A DNA stretch of 49,463 nucleotides. Origin: a virus. The translations under genes and the position numbers were made by a program. Of this stretch, positions 1,201-22,989 are shown piece by piece. How positions within the stretch are numbered: position 1 is the stretch's first letter; each line of letters begins with the position of its first letter. The DNA is taken from positions 1-49,463 of the IMG/VR virus record IMGVR_UViG_3300036804_000075; one strand, 5' to 3'. Under the pieces are notes generated by a model that was given only the letters and a program-made list of their open reading frames with translations, was not told where the DNA came from and did no database searches.

Positions 1201-1212
1201 GGAGGATGATCT

Positions 1213-1997: not shown

Positions 1998-2077
1998 CGC
2001 TCTACCTCGAACAGACCAAACGCATCGCCGAACGGAACGAGCGCATGCGGCAAATGGAGCAAGGCAGGATTAGATGA
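1584..2077 (+). CDS. Tail assembly chaperone, -1 frameshift product (E-E'-type)
   Basis: A predicted fusion of about 164 residues made when ribosomes slip back one base in the T run at 1891-1898. The first 105 codons are shared with the short product, then translation continues L-S-P-G-E-I-L-D-T-C-F-D-L-A-W-T-W to a charged helical tail ending at the TGA at 2075-2077. This two-product arrangement is established for tail chaperones of many long-tailed phages. The downstream part has no start codon that would suit an independent gene of this position. Its stop overlaps the tape-measure ATG. Slippage itself is inferred; a real base deletion or an assembly error in the homopolymer is the alternative. 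Confidence 0.75.
1892..1898 (+). promoter_or_regulatory. -1 ribosomal frameshift slippery heptamer
   Basis: The zero-frame codons are CTT TTT TTT ATC, so the heptamer T TTT TTT fits the X XXY YYZ rule. Both tRNAs can re-pair perfectly after slipping back one base. The next codon is then TAT instead of ATC, and the downstream chaperone frame opens. Confidence 0.75.
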
Positions 2078-5405: not shown

Positions 5406-5599
5406 AGATATATCGCTTTCATCCGGCGTTGGATGTTCTTGGTTCTGCATTGCGCGCCTGGACAAATAGCGATGAGCAGGCAGCCGCCGCCGCAATGCTC
5501 GTCATGAATCGCTTATCCGAGCTTGGTTACGTCACCCCTCCGGTCGAGTGGCATGGCGATGCGTGCTGCATCCGTGACGACGCGGAGCCGGCCCGATGA
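5402..5599 (+). CDS. Small protein between gpN-like and gp44-like genes
   Basis: A 65-residue protein of unknown function, beginning M-K-I-Y-R-F-H-P-A-L-D-V. It overlaps both neighbours by ATGA, which argues for a translated tail gene. No signal peptide or membrane segment is visible. It contains a cysteine pair near residue 55. A baseplate or tail-assembly role is suggested only by position. Confidence 0.6.
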   Translation: MKIYRFHPALDVLGSALRAWTNSDEQAAAAAMLVMNRLSELGYVTPPVEWHGDACCIRDDAEPAR

Positions 5600-6924: not shown

Positions 6925-7439
6925 GCGACACGCAGCAGCGCGTCATGAACATGATCGCGCGCGGTCGTCTCTCGGCGGTCGATGATGCCGATGGCATGCA
7001 GTTCACTCAGGTATCGCTGCTGCGCGGCGAAGCCAAGGCCAAGGTCGAACGGTTTCAGCAATACGGATTTTCCGGCAATCCGCCGCGCGGGTCCGAGGTG
7101 GTGGTCGTGTTCGTCGGCGGCAATCGCGACCACGGCGTCGTCATGTCGATCGACAACCGCGCGTCGCGCATTCGCGGCATGGCCGAAGGCGAGGTCGCGA
7201 TCTATTCCGACGAGGGCGACTATCTCGTCCTCAAGCGCGGCAACCAGATCGAGCTAGGCACCGATCATCTGCTCATCAAAGCAGAGGTCGATATCACGAT
7301 CGAAGCGCCGCGCATCGTCATCCGCTGCCCGGATATCACGATAGAAGGCACCATTGCGCTGACCGGCGACTTGAATGTCACCGGCAACATTAGCGCGACC
7401 GGGTCGATCAACGCGCCGAACGGGCACGTCGGACCATGA
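6921..7439 (+). CDS. Baseplate spike protein, Mu gp45-like
   Basis: A 172-residue baseplate spike of the gpV/Mu gp45 family that punctures the outer membrane. The OB-fold-type N-terminal part has G-V-V-M-S-I-D-N-R. The C-terminal third shows the short alternating hydrophobic pattern of an intertwined beta-helix (I-T-I-E-A, I-V-I-R-C, I-T-I-E-G, L-N-V-T-G). It ends in N-G-H-V-G-P. The HxH iron site described at the tip of Mu and P2 spikes is not visible. Confidence 0.87.
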   Translation: MSDTQQRVMNMIARGRLSAVDDADGMQFTQVSLLRGEAKAKVERFQQYGFSGNPPRGSEVVVVFVGGNRDHGVVMSIDNRASRIRGMAEGEVAIYSDEGDYLVLKRGNQIELGTDHLLIKAEVDITIEAPRIVIRCPDITIEGTIALTGDLNVTGNISATGSINAPNGHVGP

Positions 7440-7906
7440 CCGACATCCGCACGACGTGGAGCCCGCTGCTCTATGCCGGCGACTGGTTGATTGATCCGCC
7501 TGACCTGGCGGGCGGCGCCGATCTGGAAACGGCGACCCTGCTGTCGTTGTTCACCGACGCGCGCGCCGCTGACGACGATCGCCTGCCGGGCAGCTTGGAC
7601 GATCGGCGCGGCTGGTGGGCGGCGCCGCTCGGTTCGCGGCTATGGCTGCTGTCGCGCGAGGTTGCCACCAACGAGGTGCGGCTACGCGCCGAAGACTATT
7701 GCCGCGAGGCGTTGCAATGGATGCTCGACGACGGTGTCGCCGACCAGATCGACGTCGCCGCGGAGTGGGCCGCGCCACCGGATCAGCGGCGGCTTGAGAT
7801 CGAGGTCGTGATCTATCGCGCAGGCAACATCGTCTTTGCCCGTCGCTTTGACTGGGCTTGGAATCAACAGCGCCAGCGCGCGCTTACCACGGAGCTTACG
7901 GCCTAA
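7436..7906 (+). CDS. Baseplate protein, Mu gp46-like (gp25/gpW-type)
   Basis: A 156-residue protein in the Mu gp46 position between spike and gp47-like wedge protein. It contains the region E-T-A-T-L-L-S-L-F-T-D-A-R-A and R-G-W-W, and a beta-rich C-terminal half. This is typical of gp46 family proteins that link wedge and sheath. The stop shares one base with the next ATG (TAATG). Confidence 0.83.
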   Translation: MTDIRTTWSPLLYAGDWLIDPPDLAGGADLETATLLSLFTDARAADDDRLPGSLDDRRGWWAAPLGSRLWLLSREVATNEVRLRAEDYCREALQWMLDDGVADQIDVAAEWAAPPDQRRLEIEVVIYRAGNIVFARRFDWAWNQQRQRALTTELTA

Positions 7907-8970
7907 TGCCCTTCACGCGCCCCGCGCTCGATGATCTGCGCCGCCGCGTCAAGGCGGACATCATGGTGCGCCTGCCCGGCACCGATGCGCTGCTGCGCAA
8001 TAACAACCTCAATATTCTCGGCGAGGTCGAAGCCGGCACCGCGCATCTGCTGTATGGGCGACTGGACTGGTCATTCCGGCAACTGTTCCCGGATACGGCC
8101 GAGGGCGAGTTCTTAGAAAGATGGGCCTCGATCTGGGGTGTGCAGCGGATCGCGGCGACGAAGGCAACCGGGTTCGCATCCTTTCCGGCCGAGGCGTCAA
8201 CCGAGATCCAACGCGACGCTATTCTCTCGCGGCGCGACGGCGTGCGCTATCTGGTCAACACCGGGGCGTCGGTGATCGAGGACACGATCACCGTGCAGAT
8301 CGATGCGGAGGAGTTCGGCGCGGCCGGAAATGCGGCGCCAGATGTGCAGCTCTCGATGGTGACAACGGTCAACAACGTCGCACCGCTCGGCCGCGTGCTG
8401 GCGCCCGGCGTCGTCGGCGGCGCCGATGAGGAAAGCGACGAGCAACTGTTGGTTCGGCTACTCGCGCGCATCCGCCTCCCACCGCGCGGCGGCACGAAGC
8501 ACGACTACGAATACTGGGCGATGGAGGTGCCAGGTGTAACGCGCGCGTGGTGCTACCCGCTTGAAGACGGGCCCGGCACTGTCGTGGTGCGCTTCATGAT
8601 GGACGACGTGCGCGCCGATCAGGAGGGCATACCGACCGAGGGCGACGTCGCGCTGGTCCAAGGGCACATCGACGAAAGCCGGCCTATCACGGCAGGGGCC
8701 TTTGTCATCGCACCGATCGCCGATCCGCTCGCCATACAAATTGCGCAGCTAGAGCCGGACACACCGGAGATCCGGTCAAACATTGAGATCGAGCTGCGCT
8801 ATCTGATCCGCCGCGAGACCGCGCCGGGCGAGGAGCTTTACCAGTCGCGCATCTTTGCCGCGATCAACGCAGCACCCGGCGTCGCGCGCTTTCGGCTGCT
8901 ACAGCCCGAGTCCGACGTGCTGACCGAGCCGGGCCACATCATCGTATTCGGAAGTACCGAATATGTCTGA
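7906..8970 (+). CDS. Baseplate wedge protein J-like, Mu gp47
   Basis: A 354-residue baseplate J-like protein that builds the outer wedges. Signatures include an N-terminal R-P-A-L-D-D-L-R-R-R-V helix, the central T-V-N-N-V-A-P-L-G block, and G-G-A-D-E-E-S-D-E-Q-L-L-V-R-L-L-A-R-I-R, which matches the gp47 family closely. The ATG at 7906 is preferred because it overlaps the upstream stop. An in-frame extension to 7858 would run into the previous gene. Confidence 0.9.
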   Translation: MPFTRPALDDLRRRVKADIMVRLPGTDALLRNNNLNILGEVEAGTAHLLYGRLDWSFRQLFPDTAEGEFLERWASIWGVQRIAATKATGFASFPAEASTEIQRDAILSRRDGVRYLVNTGASVIEDTITVQIDAEEFGAAGNAAPDVQLSMVTTVNNVAPLGRVLAPGVVGGADEESDEQLLVRLLARIRLPPRGGTKHDYEYWAMEVPGVTRAWCYPLEDGPGTVVVRFMMDDVRADQEGIPTEGDVALVQGHIDESRPITAGAFVIAPIADPLAIQIAQLEPDTPEIRSNIEIELRYLIRRETAPGEELYQSRIFAAINAAPGVARFRLLQPESDVLTEPGHIIVFGSTEYV

Positions 8971-9652
8971 CGTGACCGAAATCCAGTCGCAAGCGGTCTG
9001 CGGCTTTACGCCGGACGATCTCACGCAGGTCATGGCCGATCTGCTGCCGGTCGGTGCGGTCTGGCCGCGCGACGCGCGCAGCGTGCAGCAACGCACGATC
9101 GCTGGCCTCGCCGTCGAGTATGCGCGCGTCTATACGCGTGACTGCGATCTGTTGAATGAGTCCTATCCGTGCAATTCGCTCGAGACGCTGACCGACTGGG
9201 AACGCGTGCTTGGCCTGCCTGATCCATGCACCGGATTGCTCGACACCATTCAACAACGTCGCGCTGCGATCTGCGCCAAGATGGCGGTTGTCGGTAGTGC
9301 GACGTTGCAGAGCGTCGAGGATTACCTCAACGACCTCGGCTACGACGTCGAAGTCGAAGAGGGACCGGGCCGCTTCGACTTCACAGTCTGGACGGCGGGC
9401 ACGACGCCCGTCTGGTTTCGCGCTGGCAATTCGGTGTCGGGCGAGCCGATCCGCGTCTGGGGCAATCTGCTGCTTGAATGCGGCATTGAATACATCAAGC
9501 CGGCGCACACGCGCCCCGAGCTGCATTACCTGGTGCCCGCCGATTGGGACCAGGAGGAGTCGATCTGGGACCTCGGCGAGACGTGGTGGGATGAGGGCGT
9601 GCGCCCGCCGCCTGACTGGATACCGCCAGCCATATTGAGAACGACGCCATGA
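8963..9652 (+). CDS. Tail protein, Mu gp48-like (DUF2313/YmfQ)
   Basis: A 229-residue member of the Mu gp48 family at the bottom of the baseplate. It carries L-L-P-V-G-A-V-W-P-R-D near residue 30, the E-Y-A-R-V-Y-T-R-D block, and L-T-D-W-E-R-V-L-G-L-P-D followed by Q-Q-R-R-A-A, all recognisable family motifs. It lies directly after gp47-like and overlaps the fibre gene by ATGA, as in other Mu-type tails. Confidence 0.87.
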   Translation: MSDVTEIQSQAVCGFTPDDLTQVMADLLPVGAVWPRDARSVQQRTIAGLAVEYARVYTRDCDLLNESYPCNSLETLTDWERVLGLPDPCTGLLDTIQQRRAAICAKMAVVGSATLQSVEDYLNDLGYDVEVEEGPGRFDFTVWTAGTTPVWFRAGNSVSGEPIRVWGNLLLECGIEYIKPAHTRPELHYLVPADWDQEESIWDLGETWWDEGVRPPPDWIPPAILRTTP

Positions 9653-10914
9653 GCAGAATTGACCCTACCAAACCGGTATTCGGAAATCCGACGACGGCGA
9701 GCGTGCGCGACAACTTTGCGATCGCCAAGTCTGAGATTGAAGGTCTCGAAGCGTCGAAGGCACCGCGCACGGAGCTTGCAAATTATCTGCCGCTGGCCGG
9801 CGGCGTGATGACGGGGCCGATCACACTCGCGGCCGATCCAACCGCGCCGACGCAGCCGGCGACGATGCGCTACGTCGATGCTGCCGTCGCGAACCTCGAT
9901 AGCAGCGCGACGGGGCGCTTCCTGCCGCTGGCTGGCGGCACGATGACCGGACCTCTGGTGCTCGCGGCCGATCCAGCCGCGCCGATGCAGCCCGCAACAC
10001 GCAACTATGTGGACAACGCACCATTCCTGCGCTTGGCGGGTGGCGCGATGACCGGGCCATTGCTGCTGGCGGGTGGTCCGGCCACCGCGAACGGCGCGGC
10101 AACCAGGCAGTTTGTTGAAGATACGATCAGTGGCGCGGTCGGTGTCACCGAGGCACCGGAAGACGGGCGCATCTATGCGCGTGGCGACCGCGCCTGGCAC
10201 CTGTTCGGCGCGGTGCCGGTCGGCGGCATGCTCGACTGGCCATCGCGGAATATTCCCCCACGCTGGCTGCTCTGCGACGGCCGCGAACTGTCCCGCACGC
10301 AATACTCGCAGCTCTTTGCTGCGGTCGGCACCGACTGGGGTGAAGGCGACGGCGAGACAAGTTTCAATCTGCCGGACTTTCGCGGTCGAGGCTCAATCGG
10401 CTTGGATGTGCAGGACAGTGGCGGCAATTACGCGCAGCGTGTCACCGCCACGATATCGGGCATCGATGCAACGGCGATCGGCGCGGCAGGTGGTGATGAG
10501 CGTATGCACGCGCATGGACACGATATCAGTGATCCAACACACGGACATGGCGTCGCTGACGGCGGACACAATCACAACTTTCCTGATCCCGGACATGCGC
10601 ACGGTGTCTCCGATGGCGGGCACAGCCACTATTATGAAAACTCGTGGATCTTCGGGCCGGGCGGAGGAGGTCAACTCGCAGGAGCGGTAGGCGACGGCTT
10701 TTCGCCGGGCATGCAGGGCGCCTGGACCGGAGGCGCCGGCGCCGGCATCGGTATCTGGGCCGGAGGCACCGGACGCTGGATTGATGCAGCGGGCACCGGC
10801 ATCGGCATTTACGGCTCTGCGACCAACATCGCGGTCATAGGTAACGGTGCAGGCACAGCGCAGAACATGCCGCCAAGCGTCGTCTGCCCGAAGATCATCT
10901 ATGCAGGGGTATGA
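9649..10914 (+). CDS. Tail fibre protein with collar domain
   Basis: A 421-residue fibre. Residues 1-40 form a short attachment region. Residues about 45-160 hold three copies of a fibre repeat with core L-P-L-A-G-G-x-M-T-G-P and Q-P-A-T-x-x-Y-V-D. A tail collar domain follows at about residues 190-250 (P-P-R-W-L-L-C-D-G-R-E-L, L-P-D-F-R-G-R-G). Next is a stretch of HxH clusters (H-A-H-G-H, T-H-G-H-G, H-N-H, P-G-H-A-H-G, H-S-H) and a glycine-rich end. In T4-type fibres such HxH motifs bind iron in a trimeric needle. This is the likely host-recognition fibre. Confidence 0.88.
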   Translation: MSRIDPTKPVFGNPTTASVRDNFAIAKSEIEGLEASKAPRTELANYLPLAGGVMTGPITLAADPTAPTQPATMRYVDAAVANLDSSATGRFLPLAGGTMTGPLVLAADPAAPMQPATRNYVDNAPFLRLAGGAMTGPLLLAGGPATANGAATRQFVEDTISGAVGVTEAPEDGRIYARGDRAWHLFGAVPVGGMLDWPSRNIPPRWLLCDGRELSRTQYSQLFAAVGTDWGEGDGETSFNLPDFRGRGSIGLDVQDSGGNYAQRVTATISGIDATAIGAAGGDERMHAHGHDISDPTHGHGVADGGHNHNFPDPGHAHGVSDGGHSHYYENSWIFGPGGGGQLAGAVGDGFSPGMQGAWTGGAGAGIGIWAGGTGRWIDAAGTGIGIYGSATNIAVIGNGAGTAQNMPPSVVCPKIIYAGV

Positions 10915-10934
10915 ACGAGAAGGAGATCCGAACC

Positions 10935-11342
10935 ATGTCCGCCGCAACCGATCAGGCCACGCAGACCTTACAACAGATGTTTGAGATGCAGGCCGGTGCC
11001 GTAGTGACCGGTCCGGATGCCGCGCAACTAAAATATACGTTCGATGGGCAGAAGGTCTATGAGCTGAGTTATCTCGGCGTCATGCTCGGCGGCTTTGCAA
11101 CCGAGGCCGACATGCGCACCGAAGTGCAGCGCTTCGTCATGTCACGTGAGTTCAACGTGCTCGGCAATCCCGTGCGGCTGCAAAAGGCTTGGAATGCAGC
11201 GGGCGCGGTCGAGGGCATTCCGCAGGGGCCGATCCTGATTTGGCGGCAGGGTCACACGATCTCGGTCACGTCCGATGGCAACGGCTGGTCGGTATCGATG
11301 GCCTATGCGGTGCTGCCGCCCTATGCGCGCCTCGCCACATGA
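10935..11342 (+). CDS. Conserved phage protein after tail fibre
   Basis: A 135-residue soluble protein of unknown function, with a helical N-terminus (residues 1-25) and a beta-rich rest (I-L-I-W-R-Q-G-H-T-I-S-V-T). The ATG at 10935 has AAGGAG 10 bases upstream. An alternative ATG at 10911 overlaps the fibre stop but has no such site. Position between two fibre-type genes suggests a fibre-associated or fibre-assembly role, which is inference only. Confidence 0.6.
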   Translation: MSAATDQATQTLQQMFEMQAGAVVTGPDAAQLKYTFDGQKVYELSYLGVMLGGFATEADMRTEVQRFVMSREFNVLGNPVRLQKAWNAAGAVEGIPQGPILIWRQGHTISVTSDGNGWSVSMAYAVLPPYARLAT

Positions 11343-11515
11343 ACGACGACGACCTGCTGACGGTAACTATGAAAGCGGTCTTGTGGAATCGCGCGCTCGC
11401 GTTGCTCGGCGACCAACCTTCTAAGGTCTCAGCCGAGGTGTTCATCGAAGTCTTAAAGCAGTGCACGACGCAGCAAAGACAGGATCAACAAGGGCCAGAC
11501 CATGCATCGTGTTGA
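11339..11515 (+). CDS. Small protein in tail fibre cluster
   Basis: A 58-residue protein of unknown function. It begins M-N-D-D-D-L-L-T-V, is helical in its first 40 residues and glutamine rich at the end. It overlaps the upstream stop by ATGA and the next fibre gene by 14 bases. No membrane segment is present. Confidence 0.5.
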   Translation: MNDDDLLTVTMKAVLWNRALALLGDQPSKVSAEVFIEVLKQCTTQQRQDQQGPDHASC

Positions 11516-12584
11516 CCACCCGTCGAACGTCCCGGTTCTGCCGACGCTACAGCCGACCGGCAATCCGGGCTTCTTCTCGAACGGCAGCCCGCGCACCGGC
11601 AAGCCTGCCACGATCGTTGAGCAGGATTGGCTGAATACGGTCCAAGAGGAAATTAGCAACGTCATCGAGGGCGCGGGGATCGCGCTGGACAAGGCGCGGC
11701 TCGATCAGCTTTTTCTCGCCATTCAACTGATCGTCGATAATCGTCTGCCGCCGATGCCGTTCCTGCCGTTGTTGGGCGGCACGATGCAAGGCCCGATTTA
11801 TCAACATCTCGAGCCAACGCAGGCGGCTGAACTCACTAACAAGAACTATGTCGATACGCGCGACAATGACGTCATCAATTACGCGAACTCGCGCGCGATT
11901 CAGGAAGGCGACCGTGCACAAAATCAGGCGTATGCCTGGGATCAGGCGATCTGGGACCGCGTCAACTGGATCGACAACACGCAGGGCGGGATCGCTTTCT
12001 ACGGAAGCAACGGCGTCTTCACTGTCCCAGGCGCGGCGCGCCTGATCGAAGTCATCTGCACGGGCGGCGGTGGCGGCGGTGGCGGCAATCATGCGCCCGG
12101 TTATGGCGGCGGGGCCGGTGGCGCGGGCGGCACGGGCATCTTCGCATTCAATGTCTCACCCGGCTCACAGTTCAACGTCACCGTTGGGGGCGGTGGCGGT
12201 GGCGGCGCGGGGGACGGCAGTTCGGGCGGATCAGGCGGGGCCAGTCAATTCGCTGATGTCATCGGGGCAAGCGGCGGTCAGGGCGGTGCCGGGTCGAACG
12301 TCGGCGACCCGTACGGTGGTGAGGGCGGTGTCGGTTATGGCACGGGATTGATAATAACTGGCGGCATGGGCGGCGACGGCTGGAACCGAGGCGCGAACAA
12401 CACTAACGGGCGCGGCGGTGATGGCGGCGCGTCATTCTTCGGCGGCGGCGGGCGAGCCGGTGCACCGAGCGGCGCCAGTGGCAGGGCCTTCGGCAGTGGA
12501 GGAGGCGGCGCCTATTCCTACGGCACAGCCGGCAACGGCGGCGTCGGTGGCTCCGGTCTCGTTCTAATCAGGTGGAATCGCTGA
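11502..12584 (+). CDS. Glycine-rich tail fibre/receptor-binding protein
   Basis: A 360-residue second fibre-type protein. Its N-terminal region (D-H-P-S-N-V, G-F-F-S-N-G-S-P, I-V-E-Q-D-W-L-N-T-V-Q-E-E) is common in phage fibre baseplate-binding ends. At about residue 85 is one copy of the L-P-L-L-G-G-T-M-Q-G-P ... N-K-N-Y-V-D repeat also found in the first fibre. Residues about 180-360 are extremely glycine rich in runs separated by single residues. This resembles the polyglycine-helix tip adhesins of T-even-like phages (gp38 type). It ends V-L-I-R-W-N-R. It is likely a receptor-binding tip. Confidence 0.8.
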   Translation: MHRVDHPSNVPVLPTLQPTGNPGFFSNGSPRTGKPATIVEQDWLNTVQEEISNVIEGAGIALDKARLDQLFLAIQLIVDNRLPPMPFLPLLGGTMQGPIYQHLEPTQAAELTNKNYVDTRDNDVINYANSRAIQEGDRAQNQAYAWDQAIWDRVNWIDNTQGGIAFYGSNGVFTVPGAARLIEVICTGGGGGGGGNHAPGYGGGAGGAGGTGIFAFNVSPGSQFNVTVGGGGGGGAGDGSSGGSGGASQFADVIGASGGQGGAGSNVGDPYGGEGGVGYGTGLIITGGMGGDGWNRGANNTNGRGGDGGASFFGGGGRAGAPSGASGRAFGSGGGGAYSYGTAGNGGVGGSGLVLIRWNR

Positions 12585-12865
12585 TGGCAACACGACGACT
12601 TGCGCTTGTTATCCCGCCTGACCGCACGGTGCGGCAGGTGCTGGAAACTGACACCGACATCGGCAATCCCGGCATGGTCTGGCACGACGTGACCGATCAA
12701 CCGCAGGTCAAAGCTGGCTGGACATTCACCGCCGCGCAGACCTTTCAAGCGCCACCGCCGCAACCGCGCGCGCCTGATCCGCCACCAACACCAACCGCCG
12801 CGCAGCTCAAGGCGCAGCTCGACGCGCTCGCCGTGCAGATCGCGGCGTTGCAAGCGAAGTCTTAA
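12584..12865 (+). CDS. Small proline-rich protein, possible fibre accessory
   Basis: A 93-residue protein. The first half is beta-rich and ends G-W-T-F-T-A-A-Q-T-F-Q-A-P. A proline-rich linker follows, then a C-terminal amphipathic helix (A-Q-L-K-A-Q-L-D-A-L-A-V-Q-I-A-A-L) that could form a coiled coil. Layout and position are like small fibre-assembly or fibre-associated proteins, but no family was recognised with certainty. The ATG overlaps the upstream stop (TGATG); a GTG at 12572 is an alternative start. Confidence 0.55.
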   Translation: MATRRLALVIPPDRTVRQVLETDTDIGNPGMVWHDVTDQPQVKAGWTFTAAQTFQAPPPQPRAPDPPPTPTAAQLKAQLDALAVQIAALQAKS

Positions 12866-12886
12866 CAACCTGAGAGGGACAAACAA

Positions 12887-13093
12887 ATGTCACACAGTCA
12901 TACAATCGTCGATCCAGGGCATTCGCACGGTATCGTCGATCCGGGTCATACGCACGGCACCGTCGATCCGGGTCACAGCCATGACCTCGTCGATCTGCTT
13001 GACGACATCTGCAAGGAGGTGGTCGAGCGGACAGTGGTGAAACCACAACGCGCCGCCGATAAGGCTGTGCTACGCGCGATCCGATTTGGCTAA
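12887..13093 (+). CDS. Histidine-repeat small protein
   Basis: A 68-residue protein. Residues 2-35 are a tandem repeat with consensus V-D-P-G-H-(S/T)-H-G/D, in which HxH pairs recur every 10-11 residues. A helical C-terminus follows (L-V-D-L-L-D-D-I-C-K-E-V-V, then R-A-A-D-K-A-V-L-R-A-I-R-F-G). The same D-P-G-H-x-H-G motif occurs in the main fibre. GAGAGGG lies about 10 bases upstream of the ATG. A metal-binding, fibre-associated role is inferred from the shared motif and location; no family is known to me. Confidence 0.65.
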   Translation: MSHSHTIVDPGHSHGIVDPGHTHGTVDPGHSHDLVDLLDDICKEVVERTVVKPQRAADKAVLRAIRFG

Positions 13094-13096
13094 GGC

Positions 13097-13417
13097 ATGG
13101 AAAACCCGATAACCGGCTCTTTCTCCTGGGACCTGGTCGGCGACTTCACCGGCTGCGTCGCCGTGACGATGCTGATCATGCGCGCACTAGCGCAAGCCGG
13201 GTTCGGTTGGCTCGATCGCATTCCCTCCATCGTCGAGGCGTATGTCATCGGCGCTTTGTTGTTGGTCTGCTCGGATGTCTTCCTGCCGCCACCGCCAACG
13301 GTAAGCAGCATCGCGCTTTGTCTCGTCAACGGCTTCGGCGTCGCCGTCACCGCAGTCGGCGGCAGTGCGGTGTTCGGGATCGCGGTCAAGCCGACCGCGC
13401 CAGACAAACCAAAATAA
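13097..13417 (+). CDS. Putative holin
   Basis: A 106-residue protein with three hydrophobic segments at about residues 17-33, 46-64 and 72-98, a short N-terminus and a charged C-terminus. It starts 3 bases after the preceding stop and lies just before the endolysin. Holins form inner-membrane lesions that release endolysin. The assignment rests on membrane topology and position, since holins are too diverse to call from motifs. Confidence 0.65.
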   Translation: MENPITGSFSWDLVGDFTGCVAVTMLIMRALAQAGFGWLDRIPSIVEAYVIGALLLVCSDVFLPPPPTVSSIALCLVNGFGVAVTAVGGSAVFGIAVKPTAPDKPK

Positions 13418-13431
13418 CGGAGACCACGGCC

Positions 13432-13956
13432 ATGACCACGTTTGAGGAGGCGTTCGAGATCATCATCGGCCACGAGGGCGGCTTTCAGAACGGCCGCAAC
13501 GACCCCGGCAACTGGACCAGCGGCAAAGTAGGCTCGGGCACGTTGAAGGGCACGAAGTTCGGAATCTCGGCGGCAGCCTACCCAAGCCTCAATATCGCGG
13601 CGCTGACACTTGACGACGCGAGGGCGATCTATAAGCGCGACTATTGGGACCGCGTGGAGGGCGATACGTGGGAGCCTATTCTCGCGGTGATCGCCTTCGA
13701 CGCGGCGATCAACAACGGACCCGCGCGCGCAATCCAATGGATGCAGACGGCGGTAGGCGTGCCGGCGGACGGTATCATCGGCCCGGTCACCCGCAACGCG
13801 ATCTTAAATAGCGACCAGGACGATATCGGCTATGAGCTGCACGCGTTGCGGCTGTTCTTCATGGCTAGTCTCGACAACTGGAAAACCTACGGCCTTGGCT
13901 GGGCGCGCCGCCTTGCGCGACTGCCAGGTCAGGCCGCAACGCTCGTCCAGACCTGA
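13432..13956 (+). CDS. Endolysin, GH108 N-acetylmuramidase-type
   Basis: A 174-residue peptidoglycan hydrolase. The N-terminal domain has the family motif G-H-E-G-G-F with the likely catalytic glutamate at residue 15, followed by N-D-P-G-N-W-T-S-G and T-K-F-G-I-S. The C-terminal part (about residues 95-165: G-V-P-A-D-G-I-I-G-P-V-T-R-N-A) matches a peptidoglycan-binding type 3 domain. The ATG at 13432 has GGAGA upstream. There is no signal peptide, so export depends on the adjacent putative holin. Confidence 0.88.
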   Translation: MTTFEEAFEIIIGHEGGFQNGRNDPGNWTSGKVGSGTLKGTKFGISAAAYPSLNIAALTLDDARAIYKRDYWDRVEGDTWEPILAVIAFDAAINNGPARAIQWMQTAVGVPADGIIGPVTRNAILNSDQDDIGYELHALRLFFMASLDNWKTYGLGWARRLARLPGQAATLVQT

Positions 13957-13970
13957 AGGGAGGCAGAACT

Positions 13971-14462
13971 ATGCCAAAATCTCTAGCGGGCAATAACCTA
14001 CTCCGGCACGGTCACTGCGTGAATAGAACTAGGACGAAGTTCGCTGAAACGTGGTCGCAAATGAAAGCGCGATGCAATAACGCTAACAGCATCAGCTTCA
14101 AATACTACGGCGCGCGCGGGGTTAAGGTCTGCGATCGCTGGCGTGATAGCTTTGAGGCGTTCCTAGCCGACGTGACGCCCTGCCCCGGCCCTGACTTTAC
14201 ACTCGACCGCATCGACCCCGATGGAGACTATGAGCCGTCAAATTGTCGATGGGCGACCGCCTCTCAGCAGCAACACAATCGGCGCGATGCGAAGCTATCT
14301 TCGGCGAGGGTGATCGAAATCCGTCGACTTGTGCAAGCCGGATCGACGCAAGCCTCGGTCGCAGCAAGGTTTGGAATACATCAATGCACCGTTTCGCGTA
14401 TCGCGAACGGGGAACGATGGGCCGCAGAGGAGGTGAGCCATGCCCCTACGTCACGCACGTAA
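13971..14462 (+). CDS. HNH-like DNA-binding protein with C-terminal HTH
   Basis: A 163-residue protein. Residues about 25-110 have the pattern W-S-Q-M-K-A-R-C-N-N, Y-Y-G-A-R-G-V-K-V-C-D-R-W, T-L-D-R-I-D-P-D-G-D-Y and S-N-C-R-W-A-T, ending Q-Q-H-N-R-R. Such phage proteins are often annotated as HNH endonucleases. Residues about 118-150 form a helix-turn-helix (S-T-Q-A-S-V-A-A-R-F-G-I-H). It could be a free-standing homing-type endonuclease. GGGAGG lies upstream of the ATG. Base composition is slightly more AT-rich than its neighbours, consistent with acquisition. Confidence 0.68.
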   Translation: MPKSLAGNNLLRHGHCVNRTRTKFAETWSQMKARCNNANSISFKYYGARGVKVCDRWRDSFEAFLADVTPCPGPDFTLDRIDPDGDYEPSNCRWATASQQQHNRRDAKLSSARVIEIRRLVQAGSTQASVAARFGIHQCTVSRIANGERWAAEEVSHAPTSRT

Positions 14463-14628
14463 AGCCAAGACGATCCGCGCGAACATCGGCAAGAACATCG
14501 CGACCGAACGCAAGGCGGGCCGGCCGATGAAGCAGTCGGTCGCGATCGCGCTTTCCACCGCTCGCAGCGATGCCAAGGCGGCGCATATCCGCCCGCCGAA
14601 AGGGACCGGGAAGCCGCGCGCCGAGTAG
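14440..14628 (+). CDS. Small basic conserved phage protein
   Basis: A 62-residue, highly basic protein overlapping the HNH-like gene by 23 bases. It has the pattern K-A-K-T-I-R-A-N-I-G-K-N-I near the start and M-K-Q-S-V-A-I-A-L-S-T-A-R, seen in small phage proteins of unknown function that lie among structural or packaging genes. GAGGTGAGCC precedes the ATG. A nucleic-acid-binding role is possible from charge alone. Confidence 0.6.
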   Translation: MPLRHARKAKTIRANIGKNIATERKAGRPMKQSVAIALSTARSDAKAAHIRPPKGTGKPRAE

Positions 14629-14690
14629 GGGCCATTTGACGGTGCTGGTGCACTGGCTGCACATGCAGTCAGTCATCTGGGAGCACCGCC

Positions 14691-15377
14691 GTGCCAAGCA
14701 CGCAAGATCGCATTGCCGCCGTTCACTGGTTCCATCAATTCGACTTCGGGAATGGCCTTTATACGCATGGCGCCGACGCGGCCGGACCTATGCGGCACAA
14801 GGCCGAGCTGGTCTTTCGCCATCCGGTCGCCGGCAAGACAGTGCTCGATATCGGGGCGTGGGACGGCTACTTCTCATTCGATGCGGAACGGCGCGGCGCA
14901 TCCCGCGTTCTGGCCACCGACTATTTCTGTTGGGGCGGGCCGGGCTGGGGCACGCAAGACGGTTTCAACCTGGCCCGTGAGCTGCTGCACTCCCGCGTCG
15001 AGGACCGTGAGATCGACGTTCTCGATATCTCGCCCGACACAGTTGGCACATTCGATGTCGTGCTCTTTCTGGGCGTCCTCTATCATGTGACTGATCCGAT
15101 CGCATATCTGCACCGGGTCTATTCGGTCACGCGCGAGATGGCGGTGATCGAGACGGCGCTTGATCTGGAGGACATCGACCGCCCGGCGCTGTCCTTTGTG
15201 AATTGCAGGGATCGGCCGACCGATCCTCGCGCGCCCCTGAGCAATGACCCCACCAACTTCTTCGGCCCAAATTCGCTCGCCGTTATTGCGATGCTTGAGC
15301 ACGTCGGTTTTTCCCGCGTGGAGAAGGAGATCGTGTGGGAAGAAATACCGCGCGGCTATTTCTACGCGTTTCGATAG
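14691..15377 (+). CDS. Class I SAM-dependent methyltransferase (CmoB-like)
   Basis: A 228-residue Rossmann-fold methyltransferase. Motif I is V-L-D-I-G-A-W-D-G-Y-F at residues 51-61. The post-motif acidic residue is in A-T-D-Y, and L-G-V-L-Y-H-V at about 127-133 is the pattern seen in CmoB-type and sugar-modifying methyltransferases. The start is GTG with GGGAG upstream. It is the last rightward gene after lysis and ends 5 bases from the convergent glycosyltransferase. A role in methylating a glycan or tRNA is possible; the neighbouring glycosyltransferase favours a glycan (inference). Confidence 0.78.
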   Translation: MPSTQDRIAAVHWFHQFDFGNGLYTHGADAAGPMRHKAELVFRHPVAGKTVLDIGAWDGYFSFDAERRGASRVLATDYFCWGGPGWGTQDGFNLARELLHSRVEDREIDVLDISPDTVGTFDVVLFLGVLYHVTDPIAYLHRVYSVTREMAVIETALDLEDIDRPALSFVNCRDRPTDPRAPLSNDPTNFFGPNSLAVIAMLEHVGFSRVEKEIVWEEIPRGYFYAFR

Positions 15378-15382
15378 CGGGC

Positions 15383-17368
15383 TCAGGCTGGTCGCAGCCA
15401 CGCATGCTGCTGGGTCATCGCGGCGCGTAGCTGAGCGGCTCCGGCAGCGCCCGCACGGTGGCTCATCGAGTCCGAATGCACGCGATACTCGGCGAGCGGC
15501 TCGTCGCCCGCATGCACGCCGCGCAGACCCAACTCGGCAAGGCGGCACCACAGGTCGTAGTCTTCCCAACCTTCCGTGGTGCAGACCGACTGATAGCCTC
15601 CAACCGCCGCCCAGGCGCCGCGCGCGATCAGCGCCAGCGCGTCGATGTAATTGCCGCCGATGAAGTGCGCCGGGTCATAGGCGCGATCGCCGCGCGTGCC
15701 GTGGTCCTCGCCGAAGTGCTGCAACGTCGGATAGGCGAAGACCGCGTCTGACGCTTCTACCGCCGTCAGTAAAGTCCGAACGCAAGTCGGCCGCAGCCGG
15801 TTGTCGGCGTCGAGTGCCAGGACCCACGGCGTCTCGGCATGCGCGAAGCCGGTATTGCGTGCGGCGGCGAGGCCAGCATTCGCCCGGTGCTGCAGCAGCA
15901 TGGCGCGGCCGAAGCGGGCGGTATGGTCTGTCAGCCATGCGCGCGCCCGCTTGCGCGACCCATCGCGTGAGCCGTCGTCGACCACGATCAGGTCGAGGTC
16001 GGGCACAGTCTGCGCCACGACCGAATCCAGCGCCTCGACAATGAACTCGGCATAGTCGAACAGCGGGATCACGACCGTCACGGCCGCGCGCTGGTGCTGC
16101 TCGGCGACGAACCGGGTGGTGGCATCGACAAGTGGGACCTGGCGCGTGCGATGCACCTGCGTCGCCCGAGCAAACGCCTGCGCGGCACGTCGCCCACCAC
16201 CTGCCAGGTCAATCGCGTCGGCGATCAGCTCGGCGCGGCGTTCCGGCCCGAACGTCCAGAGCACGTCGCGCTTGGCTGCAGCGGCGAGGCGCTGTCGCTC
16301 GGCCGGGCGCTCAATGAGCTTCATGATGCCGGTCAGCCAGTCCGCGCGGGTGCGTGCGAGGATACCGGTTTCGTTGTGGCGAATGGCGCGCGCGAACGGG
16401 CCGGTCGGCGAGGCAATGGTCGGCACGCCGACGAGCGCGGCCTCGAAGAACTTTAGCTCGCTCTTGGCTTCGCAGAACGGATTGCCGGTCTCGATCGGCG
16501 CCAGATTGATATCGAAGCGCGCCAGCTCGGCGGGCAGCGCGTCCGGCTCGCACCATTTGCGGATCTCGACCCGGTCGCCGAGGTCATACAGTTGAGCGAA
16601 TTCAGAGATGTCGACCAGCGGTCGTCCGTTGAAGGAGAACAGCACCAGCCGGGTCTGCGGATAGTGGCAGAGCGCGAAGCAGATCGCGGCGGCGCCGATG
16701 ACGAAATCGCGCTGGTGCGTCCGACTGCCGGCGGCGTAGCCGATCCGCAGCAAACCATCATCCGGCCGCGTCGCTGCCGCCGCCCGAGCGCGCATCGCCA
16801 GCGCATGGTCGAAGCCGTTCGGGATGACCAGCGTGGGCACGCCTGCCGCGCGCATGTGCCCGGCCAGTTCCTCGGTCGATGCGATGCAGAGATCCGCACG
16901 CAGCATGCATGCGCGCGCGGCCTCGAAATAGGCAGCGACCGACGCCGTCGTCTGCCGCTGGCTGCGCATGCCGTCAATGATGCGCGGCACCGCGAGCTGA
17001 GGATCGATCATCAGGTCGTCGATGTCGTAGATGATCCGCGCGCCACCGCGCCGCGCCGCTTCGATCGCTGCACTGACCGGCGTGGTCAGTCGCGTGCGCC
17101 ACAGCCAGAGCACAGCCGCGTGGCTGATCGTGCTGAGATGATCGCGCACAGCTGCGGCCGTGAGCACGACGTTGGCGAGGCCCGTTGCGGTGGCGGCGTC
17201 AGACGCGCGAGCGACCCGGTAAAGATGACCTGGTGTCGCCGGTTCGCCGGACAGGAACACGACGACCGGTCGTGTGGCGGGACGCGCCACGGGTGCGGGC
17301 GCCGCGCGCCGGGTGGGGACTGCGACACGCTCGCGCGGATGCGGGCGGAACGGGACGGCGGCCATCAT
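15383..17368 (-). CDS. Bifunctional glycosyltransferase (GT-B domain + GT2 domain)
   Basis: A 661-residue two-domain enzyme. Residues about 30-400 resemble a GT-B glycosyltransferase: R-I-I-Y-D-I-D-D-L at 111-119 and a glutamate-rich nucleotide-sugar region C-E-A-K-S-E-L-K-F-F-E near 299-309. Residues about 428-650 are a family 2 (GT-A) domain: V-V-I-P-L-F-D-Y, D-D-G-S at 464-467, the metal-binding D-A-D at 520-522, and W-E-D-Y-D-L-W at 601-607 with the likely catalytic base. No membrane segments are seen. It probably glycosylates a host surface polymer (lysogenic conversion) or a virion protein. It is read leftward after the excisionase-like gene. Confidence 0.82.
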   Translation of the reverse strand: MMAAVPFRPHPRERVAVPTRRAAPAPVARPATRPVVVFLSGEPATPGHLYRVARASDAATATGLANVVLTAAAVRDHLSTISHAAVLWLWRTRLTTPVSAAIEAARRGGARIIYDIDDLMIDPQLAVPRIIDGMRSQRQTTASVAAYFEAARACMLRADLCIASTEELAGHMRAAGVPTLVIPNGFDHALAMRARAAAATRPDDGLLRIGYAAGSRTHQRDFVIGAAAICFALCHYPQTRLVLFSFNGRPLVDISEFAQLYDLGDRVEIRKWCEPDALPAELARFDINLAPIETGNPFCEAKSELKFFEAALVGVPTIASPTGPFARAIRHNETGILARTRADWLTGIMKLIERPAERQRLAAAAKRDVLWTFGPERRAELIADAIDLAGGGRRAAQAFARATQVHRTRQVPLVDATTRFVAEQHQRAAVTVVIPLFDYAEFIVEALDSVVAQTVPDLDLIVVDDGSRDGSRKRARAWLTDHTARFGRAMLLQHRANAGLAAARNTGFAHAETPWVLALDADNRLRPTCVRTLLTAVEASDAVFAYPTLQHFGEDHGTRGDRAYDPAHFIGGNYIDALALIARGAWAAVGGYQSVCTTEGWEDYDLWCRLAELGLRGVHAGDEPLAEYRVHSDSMSHRAGAAGAAQLRAAMTQQHAWLRPA

Positions 17369-17376
17369 CGCCGGGC

Positions 17377-17751
17377 TTATCCAAGCGATCGCTGGCGCCT
17401 GCGCGAACGCCTCTGACGGCCAGCGCCATCAGGGGCGGGTGAAGCTGATGGTGCGGTTGGTGCGGCGTGCTGCGCCACAGAAGGCCCATGCGTGGCCGAA
17501 ACACCACCCGCTGCTGCGGCTGCATCGAGCCACGCGTGCCAATCCACGCGGCGGCAATAGACGCGGCGACCGAGCGTGAAGACTGTCGGTCCCTTGCCGG
17601 CTGCCAGCAACTTGTTGAGCGTATCTGGGGGCAGGTCATAGAGTTGACACCAAACAATCAGTCGTGCCGCGTGCGGCTCTACGCCGATTGACCGGCCGGG
17701 GGTCAGTGGTTCGTCGCTAGGGTAATCGAAATCGTTGAAATCTGCGTTCAT
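17377..17751 (-). CDS. Excisionase/AlpA-like DNA-binding protein
   Basis: A 124-residue protein. Residues about 25-80 show the AlpA/excisionase winged-helix pattern: Y-D-L-P-P-D-T-L-N-K-L-L-A-A-G-K-G-P, then F-T-L-G-R-R-V-Y-C-R-R-V-D-W-H-A-W-L-D. The tail is alanine/proline rich and basic. The ATG at 17751 has GGGAGG 9 bases upstream. It lies downstream of the integrase, with the glycosyltransferase 8 bases further on. It could direct excision, regulate the integrase region, or both. Confidence 0.62.
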   Translation of the reverse strand: MNADFNDFDYPSDEPLTPGRSIGVEPHAARLIVWCQLYDLPPDTLNKLLAAGKGPTVFTLGRRVYCRRVDWHAWLDAAAAAGGVSATHGPSVAQHAAPTAPSASPAPDGAGRQRRSRRRQRSLG

Positions 17752-17910
17752 GACGGGAGCCCTCCCGCATGACCAATTACCGCTCACCGCGGCGATGACA
17801 AGCAATCACACGATATGCCTCGCAATGACACCATAGACACGAGGCGCGGTATCGGACGGCAATGAACGACAATCGACAACAAATTATCAGCCTGCCTCGC
17901 AGGCTGTTGA
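17752..17910. other. Integrase-excisionase spacer with short repeats
   Basis: No gene is seen in these 159 bases. Four imperfect copies of GCRATGACA-like sequence occur (17792-17800, 17802-17810, 17822-17830, 17859-17867). They could be binding sites for the excisionase-like protein or the integrase. The stretch is more AT-rich than the flanking genes. Confidence 0.35.
17888..17906 (-). terminator. Hairpin downstream of integrase
   Basis: A perfect 8-bp inverted repeat, CAGCCTGC and GCAGGCTG with a 3-base loop, lies 4 bases after the integrase stop. On the minus strand it is followed by ATAATTTGTT, a weak T-rich tract. It may terminate or attenuate leftward transcription between the integrase and the excisionase-like gene. 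Confidence 0.5.
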
Positions 17911-19257
17911 TCAGTCCAACCGCAGCGCGTCGTTGCCGAGGGTGCTGATCCAGCGGGAGTAGGACCGCTCGATCATGGGCGTGCTGGTGTCGAGGTGCTC
18001 GGCGATCAGGCGCAGCGGTACGCCCGCCATGATCAGCTTGCAGATGCGCGCATGGCGGAATTGATAGAACTTGCCTTCAAAGCCGGCCTCTTTGGCGGCG
18101 CGTACCCAATCGTTCCGCCCCCATGGCCGTTCGCCAACGATCTCCCAGCCCATTTTATCGCGCTCTCTGATCCTCGCCTTCTTCGGCAGGGTAAACAGGA
18201 ATGCGTCGCGAGGGCGCACCTTCGCGAGAGCGACAAGCTCCTCCGCCAGCGCCGTCCCGATTGGCACATGCGCCAGACGTTTGTTGGCCGACCCATAGCG
18301 GCCCTTTTCCGAGGGTCGCACCACCAGCTTGTAGCCTGATGATTCCCGCTGCAGGTCGCGCACCTGCAGCATGGCGAGCTGGCTTGGCCGAACACCGGTG
18401 CCCGCTATGGTGGCGGCGAAAACACCGAATCGGGGGTTGACCTGGCGGGCGGCGGCGACGCGCCTTGCGACCTCTGCATCGTCCGGCACGTCACCCACGC
18501 TATCCGTGTCCTCCGAATAGGGTCGCCGCGTTTGCGTCAGTTGCAGATTCATCGCTTTAATGACTGCGAGAGGCGGCCGGATCGCCGCGGGCAGACGGTT
18601 GAACGCCGCCTTGACGCTGGCTATCACCCGCGCCGGCGTCTTCTCAGCAAACAGGTGAGCGCTGGTCTCGGTGACGTTCGTGAGCCGGCTTGCGCCGAAA
18701 TCGCCGAGCCACTTACCGAACCTCCAACGCGCCTCTCGCGCTGGGCGCGGACCGCGCCGTTCTAGAGTTCTCGCATAGCGCTCGCACGCGGCGGCGACGG
18801 TGGTGAGGTCTGACAGGCCGTCCTGGATGACGATCGTGCGAGACGCGGCAGCTTGTTCGGCGGCGGCCTGGACGATCGCATGAGCGCGCTGCACGGCCTG
18901 CCTATGATCAAGCACGTCGGTTCCATCCGCCGGCGTCAGATCGTCGGCATCCGCAAACGATTGTTTGACGTAGCGATTGGCGTCGAAATCACGCCAGCGG
19001 ACCCACCAGGCGCCGGGGTCGTTTGCGTCTGCCGGACGACGATAGCCGAGTGCCACACCCCTGCTGATCACCTGCCAGACGAGCGCTTTGGGTTCGAGTT
19101 TGGCGCGCGCCGTGGGCGATCCAAACGACCTGGATTGACCGGATCGCGTGGGCGTGGACACCGGCACGATGACTGGGATCTCGATAGGGCGCCGGAGCGC
19201 TTTCCGGGGGCGTAGCGTCGAGGGCTGGGGGCGCAGTGTCGTGGGTAACGTGGGCAT
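17911..19257 (-). CDS. int: Tyrosine site-specific integrase
   Basis: A 448-residue phage integrase of the tyrosine recombinase family, catalysing attP-attB recombination. The C-terminal catalytic domain has the first arginine in G-T-G-V-R-P-S-Q-L (about residue 290), the second arginine in Y-Q-F-R-H-A-R (about 401, with Tyr in place of the usual first His), a histidine in A-E-H-L-D-T (about 421) and the nucleophilic tyrosine in I-E-R-S-Y-S-R (about 433). The N-terminal 60 residues are proline/arginine rich and low complexity. ATG at 19257 was chosen; a TTG at 19269 would add four residues. Confidence 0.92.
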   Translation of the reverse strand: MPTLPTTLRPQPSTLRPRKALRRPIEIPVIVPVSTPTRSGQSRSFGSPTARAKLEPKALVWQVISRGVALGYRRPADANDPGAWWVRWRDFDANRYVKQSFADADDLTPADGTDVLDHRQAVQRAHAIVQAAAEQAAASRTIVIQDGLSDLTTVAAACERYARTLERRGPRPAREARWRFGKWLGDFGASRLTNVTETSAHLFAEKTPARVIASVKAAFNRLPAAIRPPLAVIKAMNLQLTQTRRPYSEDTDSVGDVPDDAEVARRVAAARQVNPRFGVFAATIAGTGVRPSQLAMLQVRDLQRESSGYKLVVRPSEKGRYGSANKRLAHVPIGTALAEELVALAKVRPRDAFLFTLPKKARIRERDKMGWEIVGERPWGRNDWVRAAKEAGFEGKFYQFRHARICKLIMAGVPLRLIAEHLDTSTPMIERSYSRWISTLGNDALRLD

Positions 19258-19632
19258 TTTCTCACTCAACCAGTGCGGGAATATCAGTGCGGCAAAATGG
19301 GTTCATGGGTAATGGCGTGGGTAAAACCATATGGCTAGTTACGACAACGTATGCAAGACCAATGACGGTTTTTCAATAAGTTAGTGTGGGCCGAAAGGCC
19401 TCGTCATGGCAATTTTGACGCCTTCCCAGTGCGGCATATCAGGCCGAAATCAGTTCAGATAAATCAGCGATAACAATATATTAGCTCGATATTTGGCCCG
19501 CGTGGGCAATAGCGTAGGTAACAGTGGTCGCCGTGGGTAATTGCGCGTCACCGGTTGCCGTCAGGGGTCGCTTGTTGCCATTGGCCGGAATGAGATGCTA
19601 GCGGCGTCAGCGCGGCCGAAGGCAAGGCGCGA
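19258..19632. other. Candidate attP and integrase promoter region
   Basis: These 375 bases hold no gene and are markedly AT-richer than their surroundings. Copies of a CGTGGGTAA-like repeat lie at 19240-19248 (inside the integrase start region), 19249-19257 (CGTGGGCAT), 19304-19312, 19316-19324, 19501-19509, 19513-19521 and 19532-19540. CAGTGCGG occurs at 19271, 19285 and 19427. Two repeat clusters flanking an AT-rich centre (about 19330-19500) are how arm-type integrase sites flank a crossover core. The core itself cannot be named without a host junction. Confidence 0.55.
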
Positions 19633-20388
19633 ATGTTCGACGTCAGGATTTCCGCCACACTGCTTGCGATCCTCGGTTTGCTGGCCCTCGGCCGGACCTA
19701 CTTGCGCCGCCGAAGTCGGCGCAAGGCCGAGGCTAAGCCAGACGTGCCGCCGGCGCTCGGGGTTGCCCATGGGTTGCGGGTTATCCGCGACGCCGAGGAT
19801 GACGATCACTACAAGCAATTCGTCGACGAAATGTGGGCCTCCAGCGACGCGCGTCCCGTCCGTGTCCGACTGGAGCGCAACGGCGAAGATTCGTTCGTCC
19901 GGTCGATCGTGGATCGCCCAGGAACAATCTACGTGAACACGCTCGAGGCCGGCGAACGCAAGACCTACGTCGCGGACCGCCACAGATGGACGCGCGACGG
20001 ATTAAAGGTCAGCGACGCGGGCTTCCGTGCGATCCTATTCGGCGTCCCGCCCGACGAGGCCCTCCGCTTCAACAGGCCGCCCGCCTCCGTTGAAGAGGCG
20101 CTGGCGCCCGCGAACAATCACCTCGCGGCCGAGAATTCGCTGGTCATCAATTACCGGGACGCTGAGGGCGAGGACTCCTATCGCGTGATCAGCGAAATCC
20201 GCCGAGGGGATGATCGCTTCACGTCGCGCTGTCATTGGCGCTGGGGTGAGCGTCGGACGTTCCTCTATGGACGCCTGATCCGCGTCATCAATCCAGTCGA
20301 CGGGAAGGAGATTCCGATCGAGCAATTCAGGACCCCGCGCAAACCATTTGGGACGTTGGCTAAGCGGCTGAGACGAAAGAGGGCGTGA
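19633..20388 (+). CDS. Membrane-anchored protein with WYL-like domain
   Basis: A 251-residue protein. Residues 5-22 are a single hydrophobic segment followed by an arginine cluster (Y-L-R-R-R-S-R-R-K), so the rest is predicted to be cytoplasmic. Residues about 165-225 (L-V-I-N-Y-R-D-A-E-G-E-D-S-Y-R, S-R-C-H-W-R, R-R-T-F-L-Y-G-R-L-I-R-V) resemble a WYL ligand-sensing domain. It is a lone rightward gene beside the attP candidate, a typical place for morons expressed in lysogens. Superinfection exclusion or host modification is possible but not shown. Confidence 0.6.
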   Translation: MFDVRISATLLAILGLLALGRTYLRRRSRRKAEAKPDVPPALGVAHGLRVIRDAEDDDHYKQFVDEMWASSDARPVRVRLERNGEDSFVRSIVDRPGTIYVNTLEAGERKTYVADRHRWTRDGLKVSDAGFRAILFGVPPDEALRFNRPPASVEEALAPANNHLAAENSLVINYRDAEGEDSYRVISEIRRGDDRFTSRCHWRWGERRTFLYGRLIRVINPVDGKEIPIEQFRTPRKPFGTLAKRLRRKRA

Positions 20389-21767: not shown

Positions 21768-22093
21768 GCCCGGCCACCTTTCTTGTCGCCACCCAGGATC
21801 GCTGCCGTTGCAAGCTGCTTCGCTTCGGTCTCTTTCAGCGTCGGCAACGCCTCGGCCATGGTAGTGAAGCGCGTCCGCCCGACTTCGTAGCGCCAGGTGT
21901 CGCTTGGCGCGTAGCAGATGCCGCAGAATGGATTGAGGGTGCCGTCACCGACCAACTCCTCCACCTGTGCTCGTAGCGGGTGCATTATCTTGTCGCGCGC
22001 CTCGCGGTAGCTTTCGGCCTCTCCCACACTCGCCAGGATCGCGTGACGCGCGGGACAAAGGCATTGCGCGATCCAGACGCGGCGGGCGGTCAT
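21764..22093 (-). CDS. Conserved small phage protein with cysteine motifs
   Basis: A 109-residue protein of unknown function. The N-terminus reads W-I-A-Q-C-L-C-P-A-R-H and the middle N-P-F-C-G-I-C-Y-A-P, so two cysteine pairs could bind a metal. The C-terminus is helical and lysine rich. It overlaps the methyltransferase stop by ATGA and the 39-residue gene start by ATGA. Confidence 0.6.
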   Translation of the reverse strand: MTARRVWIAQCLCPARHAILASVGEAESYREARDKIMHPLRAQVEELVGDGTLNPFCGICYAPSDTWRYEVGRTRFTTMAEALPTLKETEAKQLATAAILGGDKKGGRA

Positions 22094-22989
22094 GCTGCAG
22101 CCTCTGCAAATGAGAACAGGTCGGCCTGCTCTTCTTCGTCTTCGTCATCCGACGGCTTGGCCACGCTCGCGACCGGACGTCCGCGCATCAATTTGATTCC
22201 GGTCTGCGCCTCAACACATCGACCAAACATGTCACGCGCACCAAATCCGCCCTCCTCGAGGATCTGCAGCAGCTGCTCGACGACCGGCAGGCCATCCTCC
22301 GTCACCATCGACGTGATCCCCGGGACATTCTCCATGATGCATGTGTGGGGCCGGAGATCGCAGACGAAGCGCGCCCACTCGAACACCAGCGAATTGCGCG
22401 GATCCATCACGTCACGGCGGCCGGCACGGCTGAATCCCTGACATGGTGGGCCGCCGAACACACACCCCAACTCGTCAGGCTGCATTCCGATCGCGTTGAG
22501 CAAGCGCTCTGACGTCAACTTGCGGATGTCGCCGACGAACACATGCGCTGTTCCGCGGTGGCTGGGGTGTCCTGCAATCCAACCAGAGCCAGCGCGCAAC
22601 GGCGCTTTGCCTTCGAATGAGCCATCGTCGACCAACTCACCATCGAGCACCCTCAAGCCGTCGCGGCGATATTGATCCGCCAGGAACTTCTCCATGCGCT
22701 CTTGGTCGGATGGCTCGATGAAGTTCATCGACACCTCGCCATAACGACAGAGATTGACCATGTAGGTGCAGACCGAGGCACAGTCGTACTCTACCGCGGC
22801 AACCACACGACAACCGGCCTGGACAAAGCCGAGGTCCATCCCACCGCATCCGGAAAACAGGCTGACGCCGGTGAAGTCGACCTGACGCGCTCGCCGTTCG
22901 GCGATGTAGTGCGGGACCAGAAGGCCACTCGGCAGCAGCACGCCGTCATGCAGCTCCTCGCCGATCAGTGGTACGCGCATGTCACTCAT
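22090..22989 (-). CDS. DNA C5-cytosine methyltransferase, C-terminally short
   Basis: A 299-residue protein with clear C5-methyltransferase motifs: motif I F-S-G-C-G-G-M-D-L at 45-53, motif IV G-G-P-P-C-Q-G-F-S at 179-187 with catalytic Cys183, and motif VI E-N-V-P-G at 220-224. The QxRxR motif VIII, the target-recognition domain and motifs IX-X are not visible. After residue 255 the sequence becomes a low-complexity acidic tail. The segment between motifs I and IV is longer than usual. It could be a catalytic half that needs a partner, a degenerate enzyme, or a protein with another role. Confidence 0.78.
   Translation of the reverse strand: MSDMRVPLIGEELHDGVLLPSGLLVPHYIAERRARQVDFTGVSLFSGCGGMDLGFVQAGCRVVAAVEYDCASVCTYMVNLCRYGEVSMNFIEPSDQERMEKFLADQYRRDGLRVLDGELVDDGSFEGKAPLRAGSGWIAGHPSHRGTAHVFVGDIRKLTSERLLNAIGMQPDELGCVFGGPPCQGFSRAGRRDVMDPRNSLVFEWARFVCDLRPHTCIMENVPGITSMVTEDGLPVVEQLLQILEEGGFGARDMFGRCVEAQTGIKLMRGRPVASVAKPSDDEDEEEQADLFSFAEAAA

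Follow-up and report, generated by a model that had tools for sequence, protein, structure and literature searches.

In the serotype-converting phages of Shigella, the gtr genes always abut attP-int (PMC3636060). For the methyltransferase CmoB, a unique N-terminal domain has been described and Lys-91 is critical for carboxy-SAM (PMC4482062), and the phage enzyme CmoX has given precedent for the use of carboxy-SAM on DNA (PMC12783734). Here we compared with these systems a glycosyltransferase gene and a methyltransferase gene that sit between the lysis genes and the integrase of a viral genome. The window, i.e. the whole stretch of DNA analyzed, is IMG/VR record IMGVR_UViG_3300036804_000075 with a length of 49,463 nucleotides, and its features relevant to this study are as follows.

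1-127 and 49337-49463: exact 127-bp direct repeat (genome terminal repeat)
12887-13093: 68-aa open reading frame in which D-P-G-H-S/T-H motifs recur, shortly before the holin-like gene
13097-13417, plus strand: holin-like membrane protein
13432-13956, plus strand: GH108-type endolysin
13971-14462, plus strand: HNH endonuclease with a C-terminal HTH, between endolysin and methyltransferase
14440-14628, plus strand: small gene (phrog_2423), immediately 5' of the methyltransferase
14691-15377, plus strand: class I SAM-dependent methyltransferase, 228 aa, GTG start
15383-17368, minus strand: fused glycosyltransferase (GT), 661 aa
17377-17805, minus strand: HTH_17-like small DNA-binding protein, its stop 8 nt from the start of the GT gene
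17806-17910: short intergenic stretch, the place where attP would be expected
17888-17906, minus strand: terminator-type hairpin, perfect 8-bp, directly past the integrase stop
17911-19269, minus strand: tyrosine integrase, 452 aa

Because its first 127 bases recur exactly at the end, the genome in this record is complete and can be closed to a circle, with 49336 unique bases. A lambda-type portal and a GpA-type terminase are encoded together with a tape measure, a baseplate hub, a baseplate wedge, an anti-repressor and an integrase, and the genome is therefore that of a temperate myophage. The large terminase (TerL) has relatives of up to 62% in Acetobacteraceae genomes and of 58% in Rhodobacter phages, so that an alphaproteobacterial host is likely as judged from sequence kinship. 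By megablast, bases 1-20000 gave no match to phage isolates. Related phages in which the slot is empty were sought with the integrase, which retrieved no relative in IMG/VR, and with a tail-fibre query, which gave partial matches only; the prophages sharing TerL (up to 62%) did not have the tail-lysis-int region in common with the window. A C5-cytosine DNA methylase at 22090-22989 gave a partial profile match split in two stretches, and may be truncated or insertion-bearing.

On the plus strand, the order is tail fibres, holin, endolysin, HNH endonuclease, small gene and methyltransferase, and the methyltransferase looks like the last late gene, following the lysis genes. The 68-aa frame at the head of this region is possibly a metal-binding fibre piece, and the HNH endonuclease gene, whose G+C content (57%) is below that of its neighbours, is possibly a homing-type insertion. 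On the minus strand, the order is integrase, hairpin terminator, HTH_17-like gene and GT, and the GT appears to belong to the lysogeny side. The earlier note had placed the GT downstream of integrase and excisionase-like genes; the order stands, and the HTH_17-like protein is plausibly an excisionase by its sequence, but the HTH_17 match is weak (E 0.0023, under the curated cut-off). Moreover, since the hairpin separates the integrase from the HTH_17-like gene and the GT, the GT is downstream of the integrase but may not share its transcript. An attP at 17806-17910 would suit a lambda-type arrangement. Sequence comparison with 200 Acetobacteraceae genomes revealed no attP, a result of little weight since the host need not be among these.

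The GT and methyltransferase genes are convergent with 5 bases (15378-15382) between their stops, exactly as had been described, and both encode intact catalytic motifs and confidently modelled folds. The GT frame encodes 661 aa, whereas 30 Markov-shuffled sequences as long as the window had no open frame beyond 476 codons, and the G+C by codon position is of the coding type in both genes; therefore, neither is a chance open reading frame. Two domains of the GT were delimited by Pfam and the AlphaFold model (pLDDT 90, pTM 0.89), which bears out the description of the protein as a fused GT-B/GT2 enzyme.

16169-17266, minus strand: GT-B (GT4-type) domain, aa ~35-400
17012-17029, minus strand: GT-B motif YDIDDL
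16436-16474, minus strand: GT-B motif CEAKSELKFFEAA
15404-16123, minus strand: GT2 (GT-A) domain, aa ~416-655
15962-15985, minus strand: GT2 motif DDGSRD
15800-15814, minus strand: GT2 motif DAD
15554-15571, minus strand: GT2 motif GWEDYD

The GT2 domain matched PF00535 (2.5e-25), and the GT-B domain matched PF13524, PF00534 and PF13692 (each about 1e-9). In an alignment of 32 GT homologues (37-52% identity), residues D115, D117, D118, K302, E304 and E309 of the GT-B domain were invariant, and D465, D520, E602 and D603 of the GT2 domain were conserved. Fold matches in the PDB were the GT4 enzymes HepE, PglA, MshA and PimA and the GT2 enzymes WrtF and K4CP. No 19-residue window of the GT exceeded the usual transmembrane threshold, indicating that the protein is soluble; its GT2 domain matched phrog_841 (GtrB-like) at the domain level only.

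Scanning one genome per species, we found ~50 bacterial loci with a full-length or near-full-length GT homologue (roughly 32-51% identity), most of them from Acetobacter, Gluconacetobacter and Gluconobacter. The locus in these acetic acid bacteria is conserved, its neighbourhood also encoding an RgpF-like protein and another GT4; nothing specific on it was found in the literature. Both GT domains were matched by all 19 homologues outside this main set, and a methyltransferase domain within the same polypeptide was detected in up to 8 of these 19 (PF08241; 6 by PF13578). A homologue of Lamprocystis showed 51% identity, that of a Roseomonas plasmid (49%) has galE and rfbA/C/D nearby, and that of a Methylovirgula plasmid (46%) adjoins rfbF/G/H and heptose-type genes. 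The occurrence of homologues in O-antigen, LPS and polysaccharide clusters and their fusions to methyltransferases support surface-polysaccharide synthesis, which is most likely the job of the GT. Some of the bacterial GT-B/GT2 proteins are very large (L005, L008, L076, L309 and L310) and carry in addition a sulfotransferase-like domain or methyltransferase domains, the latter at one end or at both.

Full-length fused GTs (43-44%) are also encoded by two other IMG/VR phages, IMGVR_UViG_3300050493_000049 and IMGVR_UViG_3300009944_000238 (L002 and L003), where the gene has its place between the tail and the lysis genes, directly downstream of a methyltransferase gene. The PF13578 assignment of this methyltransferase comes from a domain scan of L002, to whose gene that of L003 is closely homologous in sequence. 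The three phage GTs did not clearly trace back to one origin (80/31). The earlier note had called a fused dual glycosyltransferase at such a place unusual, a view contradicted by the ~50 bacterial homologues and the two phages; judging from these homologues, such an enzyme is neither new nor unusual in phages.

The methyltransferase gene is preceded by a GGGAG-type ribosome site ~7 nt upstream of its GTG, and its product belongs to class I by Pfam (PF13489, 2.3e-7; PF08003, 2.4e-7), with an AlphaFold model of pLDDT 91 and pTM 0.90.

14841-14867, plus strand: methyltransferase motif I, VLDIGAWDG
15072-15086, plus strand: methyltransferase motif GVLYH

CmoB was the best PDB profile match (3.5e-17) and among the best by fold, and EvdMO1, which was crystallised with D-fucose, was also a structural match. 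Thus, the proposal that the enzyme is CmoB-like holds for the Rossmann domain only. Membership in CmoB itself was rejected: the scores against the NCBIfam equivalog cut-offs were 44.4 vs 209 and 39.9 vs 275 bits, and the CmoB-unique N-terminal domain (~100 residues) is absent, the alignment starting from CmoB residue 117, ahead of which the window methyltransferase has ~45 residues. Of three CmoB residues compared, Tyr-200 is aligned within the conserved GVLYH motif and the other two are beyond the alignment; Lys-91 lies outside the aligned region. Carboxy-SAM chemistry was rejected as well, as the window has no CmoA gene. The best NCBIfam match was TIGR04290 / DUF1698 (70.5 bits, curated cut-off 300).

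A profile scan of IMG/VR gave 110 viral relatives, and the methyltransferase belongs to a family separate from CmoB and common in viral contigs. In a tree of 55 sequences, it grouped with three viral relatives (L149, L150 and L154; 96/93). That of L154 is flanked by two glycosyltransferase genes, that of L150 is convergent with a tail-spike/EPS-depolymerase-like gene, an endolysin-like gene being close by, and that of L149 has an FkbM methyltransferase near. Two further relatives have similar surroundings, L153 abutting a tail-spike gene and L151 having a depolymerase-type tail protein nearby. The sister clade (100/99) comprises nine phage loci (L155, L157, L160, L163, L167, L168, L169, L177 and L181) at which the gene neighbours that of a DNA polymerase and/or one of RecA/UvsX type; this clade is possibly a nucleic-acid modification enzyme, so that the substrate of the window methyltransferase need not be a sugar. 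The neighbours of the closest bacterial relatives showed no consistent pathway and mostly were not glycan clusters; the relative on a Rhodovastum plasmid lies among glycosyltransferases and FkbM methyltransferases. A glycan is our best guess for the substrate, with real doubt. Neither the methyltransferase nor the GT matched a known anti-phage defence protein in PADLOC.

We lean, by somewhat better than even chances, toward the explanation that both are moron genes of a temperate myophage, the GT serving lysogenic conversion of the host surface polysaccharide and the methyltransferase most likely sugar O-methylation. The GT would be a cytoplasmic two-site enzyme drawing on host sugar nucleotides, and its GT4-type and GT2 domains would most likely attach one sugar after the other to a host glycan carried on a lipid. 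Its slot beside the integrase, like that of gtrABC in the Shigella phages, supports a surface-glycan role. A PF04138 search of the record, in which control genomes were positive, yielded no GtrA-type flippase, and the annotated genes include neither a polymerase nor a sugar-nucleotide gene; the GT would therefore have to feed on a host pathway. If made in the lysogen, it would alter the surface polysaccharide of the host, by which adsorption of similar phages would be hindered, and the methyltransferase would most likely O-methylate a sugar, possibly capping the same glycan.

The closest competitor of this explanation, to which we assign somewhat less than an even chance, is that the two genes are unrelated morons, where the GT would still act in lysogenic conversion but the methyltransferase, as a late gene, would have a substrate of its own (a virion protein, a nucleic acid or a host metabolite), and the two would be neighbours only through use of the same accessory slot. 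The two genes differ in strand and, with the terminator after the integrase, apparently also in transcription unit, and no other bacterial or viral locus pairs a window-type methyltransferase with the fused GT, the methyltransferases linked to the fused GT elsewhere belonging to another family. For these reasons, the modification cassette proposed in the earlier note is unproven, although the surface-glycan role of the GT and a general link of this GT type to methylation agree with it; overall, the earlier interpretation is partly supported. The varied contexts of the methyltransferase family, including the nine loci with DNA polymerase and/or RecA/UvsX-like genes, and the location of bacterial relatives mostly outside glycan clusters also point to unrelated genes. 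On the other hand, the window methyltransferase groups with glycan- and spike-associated members and not with the DNA-polymerase clade, and the fused GT is repeatedly tied to methyltransferases. The latter tie and the glycan/receptor genes adjoining the nearest viral kin of the methyltransferase would speak for functional coupling of the two enzymes, which we nevertheless regard as rather unlikely. A more elaborate version is improbable, namely that a widespread viral CmoB-fold methyltransferase family is re-used in glycan/receptor, tail-spike and DNA polymerase-RecA settings and here caps the product of the fused GT, giving a self-contained, methyl-terminated glycan conversion without membrane Gtr proteins.

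There is also a small chance that the enzymes, singly or together, act on the virion in the lytic cycle by glycosylating or methylating the tail fibres or some other structural protein. The methyltransferase is indeed on the tail/lysis strand, its relatives in L150 and L153 abut tail-spike genes, with the depolymerase-type tail protein near that of L151, and the GTs of L002 and L003 are beside tail genes; however, the window GT is on the integrase strand and not the late strand, its bacterial homologues are in polysaccharide and not protein-glycosylation loci, and tail-adjacent morons are common without acting on tails. We consider it very improbable that the methyltransferase is a CmoB-type tRNA or DNA modifier, possibly using carboxy-SAM: the PDB profile and fold matches, the Tyr-200 position in GVLYH and the precedent of CmoX are in its favor, but are countered by the score far under the CmoB cut-off, the missing N-terminal domain, Lys-91 outside the alignment (PMC4482062) and a window without CmoA.

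The two genes are ordinary phage cargo, most likely borrowed from bacterial surface-sugar pathways. If the preferred explanation is true, in which the GT converts the host surface and the methyltransferase most likely modifies a sugar, this would be a simple design of lysogenic conversion, where one soluble two-site glycosyltransferase redirects the surface-polysaccharide pathway of the host, and would suggest that phages of Acetobacteraceae-like bacteria take polysaccharide enzymes from their hosts. The larger point is the viral methyltransferase family, one clade of which is beside replication genes.

Among known systems, the gtrABC modules of P22-like and Shigella phages resemble the window in having a glycosyltransferase next to the integrase of a temperate phage, the GT, HTH_17-like and integrase genes being consecutive on the minus strand here, where attP was not located. 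Membership in the GtrABC-type modules was rejected, as the window has no GtrA and no membrane GtrB or polytopic GtrC; whereas gtrABC has the membrane proteins GtrB and GtrC, the window phage has a single soluble two-domain enzyme. The methyltransferase has the class I Rossmann fold in common with CmoB and EvdMO1 at 16-22% identity and lacks the N-terminal domain of CmoB; its best match, TIGR04290 / DUF1698, has a Rhizobium phaseoli member in a polysaccharide-type cluster, but the window protein is far under the curated cut-off of that family. L002 and L003 likewise carry a full-length fused GT as a moron in the vicinity of tail and lysis genes, the L002 GT with an N-terminal extension of ~95 aa, but their GT and methyltransferase genes are co-oriented, unlike those of the window, and the methyltransferase is of the PF13578 type. 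The phage GT has the same domains, domain order and invariant residues as the GT-B/GT2 fusions encoded on Acetobacteraceae chromosomes and on plasmids of Alphaproteobacteria (L010-L049, L309 and L310); most bacterial fused GTs measure ~930-1500 aa and bear additional domains, either N-terminal or of the methyltransferase type, whereas the phage GT is the bare 661-aa pair.
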